A DNA stretch of 64,000 nt from Dehalococcoidia bacterium (GTDB lineage Bacteria > Chloroflexota > Dehalococcoidia > DSTF01 > JALHUB01): positions 435,545-499,544 of the forward strand of contig JASEFU010000001.1 of NCBI GenBank assembly GCA_030018455.1. The letters run 5' to 3'. Position numbers and translations under genes: made by a program. Positions 61,228 to 64,000 of this stretch are shown piece after piece. The first letter of the stretch is position 1; every line of letters starts with the position of its first letter. The notes below the pieces were generated by a model. That model had not been told where the DNA came from. It ran no database searches and saw only the letters and a program-made list of their open reading frames with translations.

Positions 61228-61257
61228 TTGACAGGGCCCATGAGCGCGGGCTAAAAT
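61228..61257 (+). promoter_or_regulatory. Promoter of the riboswitch-controlled gene
   Basis: TTGACA (61228-61233), 18-base spacer, TAAAAT (61252-61257). Transcription would start near 61264, just before the riboswitch aptamer. Confidence 0.75.
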
Positions 61258-61263
61258 GCATCG

Positions 61264-61405
61264 AGAGTTAACAAGGGAATACGGCTGAATCCCACTGTGG
61301 TGGGAACGGGGGAACCAGGTCCCTGGGGTGTATCTCGCGGTCGCGAGAGGGGCAGGCTCTTTCAGCCCTAACCCGTCAGCTAACCTCGTAAGCCACTGGA
61401 AGAGG
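61264..61405 (+). ncRNA. Cyclic-di-AMP (ydaO/yuaA-type) riboswitch aptamer
   Basis: The leader holds the conserved words of the ydaO-yuaA class in order: GGAATACGGCTGAATCCC, then ACGGGGGAACCA, then TGGGGTGTATCTC, a variable hairpin, then TTTCAGCCCTAACCCGT and CAGCTAACCTCGTAAGC. The last word is the diagnostic core of the class, which binds two cyclic-di-AMP molecules and usually turns genes off. It is followed by an intrinsic terminator and a gene for an osmolyte-type glycosyltransferase. Assignment is by motif recognition only. Confidence 0.85.
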
Positions 61406-61416
61406 GCTGGTCTGCG

Positions 61417-61443
61417 AGCCGGGGGACGAGCCTCCGGCTTTTT
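61417..61443 (+). terminator. Riboswitch terminator
   Basis: Nine-pair stem (61417-61425 with 61431-61439, AGCCGGGGG against CCTCCGGCT, one G-T pair), five-base loop, then TTTTG. It would stop transcription ahead of the GT20 gene when the aptamer is occupied. Confidence 0.8.
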
Positions 61444-61527
61444 GTATCCCCGCATCTGGGCACCGCCGCTGGGCAAGCGGATTCTGCGGGTGAGCATGGC
61501 CTCTTCCCAAAGCAAAGGAGGGCACCG

Positions 61528-63075
61528 GTGGATACCCAGAGACTGTCGACATCAGGAAAGAATGACGACGGAGGTGGCGACCAAAGACGCATCATCGTAG
61601 TCAGCAACCGCGGGCCCCTTGAGCACTTCGTCGACGAGCAAGGGGAGTTGCGCCACCGGACGGCAGGCGGCGGCGTCGCTACTGCCCTTTCATCCGTGGC
61701 TGAATCTGTGCCCCTCACCTGGATCGCCAGCGCCCTGTCGGAAGGCGACCGGGAAGCGGCCAGGAGAGGGCCAATCTATCTCGGACGGGGAAAGCGCCTG
61801 CGGCTTGTCGCCGCCGATCGCGGAGCACTCGACCTCTTCTATAATCACTTCTGCAATCCTCTCCTCTGGTTCCTCCAGCATTCCCTCTACGACAACGGAT
61901 ACCTGCGGCCCCAACTCATCGAGAAGGCGCCGGAAGCTTGGGAGCGCGGCTATCTTCCTATCAATCAGGCCCTGGCGGAGGCGGCCGCAGCGGAGGCGAG
62001 AGGACGGGGCGACTGCCGCGGCGTCATGCTGCACGACTATCACCTGTACGCGGCGCCGCTCTTCATCCGCAACCTCTGCCCGCGGGTCGCCCTGCAACAC
62101 TTCGTGCACATCCCCTGGCCCAGCCTGGAAGCCTGGCAGCTGCTGCCGCGCCCCATCGTCGATTCCATTCACGAGGGGCTCCTCGCCAACGACAGCGTCG
62201 TCTTCCAGAACGAGGCGTCGGCGCAGCAGTTTCTCGTGTCCTGCTGGTCGTTCGTCCCTGACGCCCGCATAGATTTCAGTCAGTCGGTTATCCGCCACCG
62301 CGGCCGGAGCATCCGCGTGTGGGCGAACCCGATGGCAGTGAACGTGTTCGAGCTGCGCGCCCGTCTTGCGTCGCCGGAAGCCGAGCGTTACCGTGAGGCC
62401 CTGCAGGCAGAAGCGGGCGAGCGAACGATCGTCCGTGTCGACCGCATGGACCCGAGCAAGAACATACTCGGCGGTTTCCGCGCCTTCGGCCGCCTGCTTC
62501 AGGAGCGCCCGGAGTGGCGAGGAAGAGTGAAGTTCCTCGCGTTCCTGGTGCCTTCACGCACGAGCATCCCCGAGTACCGCGCCTACGCCGAGAACGTCCT
62601 CAAGCTTGTGGACGAGATTAACGCCCGCTACGGCAGCCCCGGCTGGTCGCCGATCAAGGTCTTCTACGAGCAGAACCGCCTTCAGGCCCTGGTCGGCCTC
62701 ACCCTCTACGACGTGCTGCTGGTGAATTCGCTTGCCGACGGCATGAACCTCGTCGCCAAGGAAGGGCCGGCGGTCAACCAGACGGACGGCGCGCTCGTGC
62801 TGTCGACGACGGCGGGGGCGTTCGAGGAGCTGCGCGATGGGGCGATCGCGGTGCGAGCGGACGACGTGGAAAACACGGCGAGGGCGCTGCACACGGCCCT
62901 GTCGCTTGGCGATGACCAGCGGCGGGAGCGGGCCTATTTGCTGCGGCGGGCCCTGTTCCGCCACGACCTCGGGCGCTGGCTGCGCCTGATGCTGGAAGAC
63001 CTGGACGAGGCGATGACGAGCGTGGCGGCGGCAAGCCGCAGCTTCTCCTCGGGCCGCCTCGACCTGCGGGCCTAG
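61528..63075 (+). CDS. GT20 trehalose-6-phosphate synthase-like glycosyltransferase
   Basis: Glycosyltransferase family 20 protein, 515 residues. NRGPL (27-31), NHFCNPLLWFLQH (106-118), HDYHLY (169-174), HFVHIPWPS (191-199), RVDRMDPSK (303-311) and DGMNLVAKEGPAVN (404-417) match the UDP-glucose/glucose-6-phosphate synthase core. Trehalose-6-phosphate synthase and glucosylglycerol-phosphate synthase share these motifs; which applies is open, but both make osmolytes. Some sugar-pocket residues deviate, for example WIASALSEG. The start is GTG 61528 with AAAGGAGGG six bases upstream. A c-di-AMP riboswitch and terminator precede it. Confidence 0.88.
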   Translation: MDTQRLSTSGKNDDGGGDQRRIIVVSNRGPLEHFVDEQGELRHRTAGGGVATALSSVAESVPLTWIASALSEGDREAARRGPIYLGRGKRLRLVAADRGALDLFYNHFCNPLLWFLQHSLYDNGYLRPQLIEKAPEAWERGYLPINQALAEAAAAEARGRGDCRGVMLHDYHLYAAPLFIRNLCPRVALQHFVHIPWPSLEAWQLLPRPIVDSIHEGLLANDSVVFQNEASAQQFLVSCWSFVPDARIDFSQSVIRHRGRSIRVWANPMAVNVFELRARLASPEAERYREALQAEAGERTIVRVDRMDPSKNILGGFRAFGRLLQERPEWRGRVKFLAFLVPSRTSIPEYRAYAENVLKLVDEINARYGSPGWSPIKVFYEQNRLQALVGLTLYDVLLVNSLADGMNLVAKEGPAVNQTDGALVLSTTAGAFEELRDGAIAVRADDVENTARALHTALSLGDDQRRERAYLLRRALFRHDLGRWLRLMLEDLDEAMTSVAAASRSFSSGRLDLRA

Positions 63076-63153: not shown

Positions 63154-63408
63154 CACCGGAGGCGGCTGCCAGCCGACCGTTTCCCGTTCGACGCAAGCAG
63201 CGACGGCAAGCGCGACGTGGTCGCAACACGGCCTCGCCGCAACCTGTACGCCGATGGGCAAACCTTCGGGCGAGGAACCGGCGCGGACGACCACGCACGG
63301 CCAGCCGGTGAAGCTGTACCGCAGCGCGTAGATGAAGTCCTCGTCCCGCTCTGCCCCGTGCGGGGGCGCCGGATAAGGGCATACGGGCGAGATGACGGGG
63401 ATTCCCGA
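63154..63408 (-). pseudogene. Amidase C-terminal remnant
   Basis: About 85 codons on the minus strand encode the C-terminal part of an amidase-signature-family enzyme: VISPVCPYPAPPHGAE, then YALRYSFTGWPCVVVRAG, then PEGLPIGVQVAARP and WQPPP. The catalytic Ser-Ser-Lys region and everything upstream are missing, so the gene is a truncated relic. It lies between the GT20 gene and the DedA gene; nothing else is seen in 63076-63535. Confidence 0.75.
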
Positions 63409-63535
63409 TGTCAGCCTGCGAGCTCCGGGAGTCGCCCTCACGGTTTGCCTTGACCCCGCCGTTCGCGCCTTGCTACACTCAATCGACGCCTCCCTCAAAT
63501 AGGGGCGCGTCCAGCAATAGCCGGAGCCGCGTGCC

Positions 63536-64000
63536 CTGATCTCAGGCATAGAAGAAGCGATCCTCGACTTCATCCGCAACACGTACGACGTCATCGAGTG
63601 GCCCGGCGTCGTCGTGCTGATGGCCATTGAGAGCGCCTGCATTCCCCTTCCCAGCGAGATCATCATGCCCCTCTCGGGCTGGATGCTCATAAAGGAGCGT
63701 TCGCTGGGCGCGGAATGGCTCCTCCTTGCCGCTTTCTGCGGCGCCCTCGGCAACTACCTGGGCTCGCTGCTCGCCTATTACGTCGGCGCCTGGGGCGGGC
63801 GCCCGCTGGTGAACCGCTTCGGGCGCTACGTCCTGATTTCCCCCCACGATCTTGATATCGCGGAAAGATGGTTTACAAAGTACGGCAACTGGGCTATATT
63901 CTTCTCACGCGTGCTGCCGGTAGTGCGGACGTTCATAAGTCTGCCCGCCGGCATGGCGCGGATGAACATATGGCGCTTTAGCCTGTATACTTTCGTCGGG
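63536..64000 (+). CDS. DedA family membrane protein, 3' end beyond window
   Basis: The first 155 codons of a DedA/VTT-domain integral membrane protein. Typical blocks are IESACIPLPSEIIMPLSG, the GNYLGSLLAYYVG helix and FFSRVLPVVRTFISLPAGMARM. DedA proteins act in undecaprenyl-phosphate and phospholipid translocation. The frame has no ATG, GTG or TTG before the conserved N-terminus (AILDFIRNTYDVIEW); an in-frame TAG bounds it upstream. CTG 63536 with GGAG nine bases before it is proposed; ATA 63548 or a downstream GTG in VVVLM are alternatives. The gene runs off the window. Confidence 0.85.
   Translation, partial: MISGIEEAILDFIRNTYDVIEWPGVVVLMAIESACIPLPSEIIMPLSGWMLIKERSLGAEWLLLAAFCGALGNYLGSLLAYYVGAWGGRPLVNRFGRYVLISPHDLDIAERWFTKYGNWAIFFSRVLPVVRTFISLPAGMARMNIWRFSLYTFVG

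Follow-up and report, generated by a model that had tools for sequence, protein, structure and literature searches.

A c-di-AMP riboswitch of the ydaO/yuaA class before a trehalose-6-phosphate synthase-like gene of Dehalococcoidia, and its recurrence before trehalose-synthesis genes in Chloroflexota

Cyclic di-AMP is best known for keeping potassium and imported osmolytes down, and to our knowledge there are few cases in which it controls synthesis of the cell's own organic compatible solutes. The described neighbours of ydaO/yuaA-class riboswitches are genes of cell-wall metabolism and genes whose products make or transport osmoprotectants (PMC7288161), and in the characterised RNAs of the class binding of c-di-AMP leads to transcription termination (PMC10117811, PMC9337991). 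A tandem Na+/c-di-AMP riboswitch precedes a lysine-2,3-aminomutase gene of Dehalobacter, and there the left terminator arm has its pairing partners among the letters of the aptamer (PMC9337991). It shares with the locus studied here a c-di-AMP OFF switch with a terminator before an osmolyte-synthesis gene, the OFF direction being predicted in our case; however, the Dehalobacter switch is a two-input gate for N-epsilon-acetyl-beta-lysine, whereas our locus has a single c-di-AMP aptamer and would serve trehalose. In Streptomyces, a high-GC bacterium like the host of our locus, premature termination upon c-di-AMP binding has been proven for the ydaO-like riboswitch of rpfA (PMC10117811); the rpfA target is a cell-wall hydrolase, whereas here an osmolyte enzyme follows. 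The closest solved GT20 enzyme is the OtsA protein of S. venezuelae (PDB 5LQD), a GDP-glucose trehalose-6-phosphate synthase with the same catalytic residues as our protein (PMC5247666). No c-di-AMP riboswitch is reported for S. venezuelae otsA, whereas the GT20 gene described below has one.

The window, i.e., the whole stretch of 64,000 nucleotides that was analysed, comes from a 2.38-Mb Dehalococcoidia genome that is 98% complete. When the whole window was searched with cmscan, RF00379 was the sole Rfam family above the gathering thresholds (96.4 bits for a cut-off of 38, E 1.5e-21), and the match spans the full covariance model, positions 1-134 of 134. The core letters CGGGGGAACCA, GGGGUG and AACCCGUCAGCUAACC are kept in the model alignment. 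As in the described members of the class, all conserved helices are present, a terminator lies directly 3' and the gene that follows belongs to osmotic physiology; the differences are the GT20 target and three small deviations near one ligand site. The folding energy of the aptamer shows no unusual stability (z -0.23) and is uninformative as evidence; its identity is taken from the covariance-model match. Within its known class, the riboswitch of the window is an ordinary member. The features of the locus and its counterparts elsewhere are collected in Table 1.

Table 1. Features of the leader and GT20 gene in the window, and RF00379 RNAs found before trehalose-synthesis genes (genome:contig) or at GT20 loci
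Feature	Position or locus	Strand	Evidence
Sigma-70-type promoter-like site, TTGACA-18 nt-TAAAAT (11/12)	61228-61257	+	consensus scan
c-di-AMP (ydaO/yuaA) riboswitch aptamer, RF00379	61273-61409	+	cmscan
Candidate switching strand, P1 5' strand CGGCU	61282-61286	+	fold of nascent RNA truncated at 61425
Aptamer P1	61283-61286 with 61391-61394	+	pair list
Aptamer pseudoknot/P helix	61306-61311 with 61384-61389	+	pair list
Intrinsic terminator, GAGCCGGGGG-ACGAG-CCTCCGGCTT	stem-loop 61416-61440, T-run 61439-61443	+	scan, fold
Ribosome-binding site, AAAGGAGGG	61514-61522	+	sequence
GT20 gene, 515 aa, GTG start, S. venezuelae OtsA-type trehalose-6-phosphate-synthase-like	61528-63075	+	profile, structure-chain match
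RF00379, then OtsA-like GT20	G000:C1 (window), G001:C327, G002:C123, G004:C66, G024:C144, G024:C59, G057:C282		coordinate cross
RF00379, then otsB, then GT20	G002:C172, G004:C22		coordinate cross
RF00379, then UDP-type GT20	G003:C10, G007:C7, G009:C59, G015:C178, G017:C266, G059:C13		coordinate cross
RF00379, then tandem TreT-family genes	G005:C18, G011:C36		coordinate cross
Further cases, 301-genome sample	G087:C35 (RNA-GT20-TreT), G176:C121, G145:C62, G145:C51 (RNA-TreT-GT20)		
Further cases, 301-genome sample	G138:C33, G138:C146, G199:C314 and G221:C491 (TreT)		
GT20 loci with RF00379 among the best 80	L167, L173 (two copies), L191, L219, L223, L230, L236, L239		

The promoter-like site was the only one found by the consensus scan (0.2 expected in shuffles), and transcription predicted from it would start near 61264. 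An intrinsic terminator, the usual expression platform of RF00379 RNAs and one that gives an OFF switch, is present in the window: it begins 6 nt past the aptamer, has 10 pairs, a 5-nt loop and a U-run, was recovered in a scan in which 0.4 was expected, and folds at -18.4 kcal/mol (z -3.2). A first-pass annotation of the letters had called a good promoter, a ydaO/yuaA riboswitch, an intrinsic terminator and a ribosome site with a GTG start ahead of a GT20 enzyme, in a probably Chloroflexota genome. Each of these calls held, including the riboswitch under the RF00379 check that it had named, and the nearest named relatives of the GT20 protein are from Dehalococcoidia and other Chloroflexota; the end coordinate that it had given to the leader, 61530, takes in the GTG start codon. 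In the RNA truncated at 61425, AGCCG in the 5' arm of the terminator (61417-61421) is available to CGGCU of the unformed aptamer, and the resulting helix is a candidate antiterminator. Among 56 leaders with terminators, pairing between aptamer strand and terminator arm was not in excess of that with swapped arms (p 0.10), and the same type of test on the GT20-linked leaders gave no excess over swaps either (permutation p 0.5).

A single diadenylate cyclase was found in the genome, CdaA (TIGR00159, 222 for a cut-off of 188.8), together with three RF00379 RNAs, three GT20 genes, one otsB and three TreT-family matches. The otsB gene adjoins another GT20 gene, one without an RF00379 match, and the GT20 gene of the window is probably monocistronic. 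We consider, with good confidence, that the trehalose-6-phosphate synthase-like gene is controlled by a ydaO/yuaA-class riboswitch that acts as an OFF switch of transcription. At high levels of c-di-AMP made by CdaA, the aptamer would close, the terminator at 61416-61443 would form and the GT20 gene would be left untranscribed. By analogy with the characterised members, the gene would be switched on at low c-di-AMP: the aptamer would open, RNA polymerase would read through and the enzyme would be made. As in characterised systems, low intracellular potassium or osmotic stress may be the trigger for the drop in c-di-AMP. The enzyme would then make trehalose 6-phosphate, to be dephosphorylated to trehalose by the OtsB protein encoded elsewhere in the genome.

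We asked how often this arrangement occurs by crossing the coordinates of RF00379 with those of GT20, trehalose-phosphatase and TreT genes in the same 60 relatives. RF00379 was found in 33 of the 60 genomes and a DAC domain in 35, with both in 32. A trehalose-synthesis gene lies directly 3' of 17 of the 96 RNAs, in 14 of the 33 genomes, where 0.096 was expected by chance on the assumption of about one gene per kb; kinship among the relatives makes a formal p-value too small. Fifteen of these RNAs precede a GT20 gene. The GT20 match of G004:C66 is to a part of the profile only. The canonical UDP-type GT20 is fused to a trehalose-phosphatase domain (TPS-TPP) in G003, G007, G009, G015 and G017, the last being cut by the contig end with its phosphatase domain largely present; in G059 the start of a trehalose-phosphatase domain follows at the contig end. 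The G005 genome is without GT20, and its TreT-family protein matches TreT structures (E 1e-80). As three kinds of enzyme are involved, in many families, the recurrence cannot be one inherited accident. The sample of 301 genomes of the phylum added further cases in other classes (two each in G145 and G138, and others in G087, G176, G199 and G221). The RNA was also present at 8 of the best 80 GT20 loci in GTDB genomes, its nine copies all lying upstream on the strand of the gene; these 80 loci are all from Chloroflexota as far as titles tell, and several are genes of the coordinate cross. When 119 GT20 domains were placed in a maximum-likelihood tree, by a quick search and with SvOtsA on a long branch, the RF00379-linked enzymes fell in both main clades (20 rows, 10 label changes; every one of 500 shuffles gave more).

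Most trehalose-linked leaders have a terminator at most 20 nt from the aptamer, and those of G001, G002 and G011 stand at the same place but are unlike in sequence. No recognisable terminator was seen in the trehalose-linked leaders of G004, G002:C172, G015, G059 and G199, which may act otherwise. RF00379 RNAs were also seen in pairs, 1-3 kb apart on one strand (G138:C33, G043:C101) or back to back (G176:C67).

The protein encoded at 61528-63075 is a GT20 enzyme (PF00982, 303.8 bits for a cut-off of 32.5, E 2.6e-90), its residues 21-493 covering profile positions 2-472 of 473. The chain of S. venezuelae OtsA (5lqd) scores 294.9 bits, whereas VldE and the UDP-type enzymes reach about 160 bits, about half of that value. 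Of the catalytic and substrate residues of E. coli OtsA, 11 were checked, and each has its counterpart in the protein (R28, G49, Y105, W114, D170, H194, R306, K311, R344, D404 and E412); they correspond to the donor and glucose-6-phosphate sites of that enzyme. However, the score with the OtsA equivalog TIGR02400 (290.1 bits) is below the curated cut-off of 564.85, as is that with the glucosylglycerol-phosphate synthase model TIGR02398 (154.4 bits for a cut-off of 569). SvOtsA contacts the guanine through D339, F341 and S344 (PMC5247666). In a test for the GDP-glucose type, these residues were absent from the window protein, which has Q382, R384 and A387 at the aligned positions; this triad corresponds neither to D/F/S of SvOtsA nor to H/L/D of E. 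coli OtsA, so that the sugar donor is not predictable from it. A donor call from the base contacts was dropped, as they fit the GDP-type enzyme no better than the UDP-type one.

These observations leave some room for a riboswitch as described above whose GT20 target makes another phosphorylated glycoside, such as glucosylglycerol phosphate or a VldE-like pseudodisaccharide, as an osmolyte or specialised product. Both curated cut-offs are missed, the triad fits no characterised enzyme, and with two further GT20 genes in the genome, one of them beside otsB, the window copy could have diverged. We nevertheless judge this unlikely: 5lqd is strongly preferred over the VldE and UDP-type chains and over TIGR02398, the sites for glucose 6-phosphate and the donor are preserved, and the riboswitch-controlled kin of the gene lie in otsB-GT20 operons, the same RNA standing also before TPS-TPP and TreT genes. 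Since different enzymes for one product are found under one RNA sensor, trehalose is the likely output, and is favoured over glucosylglycerol. The first-pass annotation had offered both: trehalose gains from the 5lqd score and from the otsB-GT20, TPS-TPP and TreT genes of the relatives, whereas glucosylglycerol was rejected on the TIGR02398 score, the 5lqd preference and the gene neighbourhoods of the relatives.

Compared with the aptamer crystallised from T. tengcongensis (PMC5393176 gives its sequence), that of the window has U instead of A at 61331, AG instead of UA at 61348-61349 and U instead of G at 61369, with no other deviation in the core letters. These sites change together in the 74 aptamers that parsed cleanly, 39 having A/A/G and 10 none of these, and the changes are shared by other aptamers of the window's order. 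Position 61331 presumably corresponds to A45 in the numbering of the T. pseudethanolicus sequence. A45 is a contact of ligand site 1 (PMC7288161). Correlated changes at three sites, with all three kinds in those 10 aptamers, might be read as a lineage variant with a lost or altered ligand response, i.e., a weak constitutive attenuator or a sensor of another nucleotide. This appears improbable, as the score is within the normal range, the changes at 61349 and 61369 turn an A-G mismatch beside a helix into a G-U pair, the sole cyclase found is CdaA, and five of the six aptamers of G004 carry the variant whatever gene follows. Because nearly all G004 aptamers vary regardless of the gene, the variant is probably lineage drift rather than adaptation to a new ligand, and possibly tunes affinity; a variant-ligand riboswitch was set aside on the same ground, although the correlated substitutions are real. 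A leader that is degenerate or fortuitous, with the gene under its promoter alone, is barely credible: the antiterminator is indeed no more than a candidate, but the covariance match is full-length, many families keep the RNA at this position ahead of the enzyme class, and terminators of divergent sequence recur at the same place.

In the literature searched, no report was found of a ydaO/c-di-AMP riboswitch with trehalose or otsA, and the lists of genes of the class that Nelson 2013 and Block 2010 reportedly give may hold a GT20 or TreT case. That RF00379 recurs across Chloroflexota ahead of trehalose-making enzymes of three kinds appears to be undescribed in that literature. The first-pass annotation had held that direct control of a GT20 gene by this class merits description; the arrangement is real, and it recurs beyond the one case which that annotation saw, as the coordinate cross shows. 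The recurrence likely turns a single leader into a c-di-AMP-trehalose regulon and suggests that c-di-AMP directly controls trehalose production in Chloroflexota. We lean towards a broader proposal: trehalose synthesis as a whole would be a core c-di-AMP output of the phylum, one RNA sensor having been placed repeatedly before non-orthologous enzymes, and the variant aptamer of the window's order may tune affinity. If this is true, trehalose is a direct c-di-AMP output in Chloroflexota, the times at which uncultured Dehalococcoidia make trehalose become predictable, and function can more readily be assigned to a poorly annotated GT20 subfamily.

Other RF00379 RNAs have different neighbours. One in the genome of the window (C4:160243-160375) precedes a gene for a 616-aa GT2-type membrane glycosyltransferase (PF13632; L079 894-2744), and in several relatives, G004, G002, G018 and G059 among them, RF00379 likewise precedes genes for similar proteins of about 550-620 aa; c-di-AMP may have in these proteins a second recurrent target. 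The third RNA of this genome, a weaker match of 51.9 bits (C3:49607-49727, L080), is separated by about 460 nt from the DUF3870 gene that follows it, and a gene for a LuxR-type response regulator comes next. Judged by eye, RF00379 is also found at or near genes for YihY-type-looking membrane proteins (G057:C455, i.e., L070, and L032). The genome of the window further has two TreT-family genes in tandem (C9:22008-23748), as have G003:C46, G005:C18, G009:C3, G011:C36 and G017:C272; in many relatives one gene of such pairs scores near 180 bits and the other near 115 bits to PF21269, and the product of the lower-scoring gene may be a different one. Finally, a fragment on the minus strand of the window (63217-63564), flanked by the GT20 gene on one side and a VTT-domain gene on the other, matches only the C-terminal part of the PF01425 amidase profile, below the cut-off, and resembles a decayed amidase.
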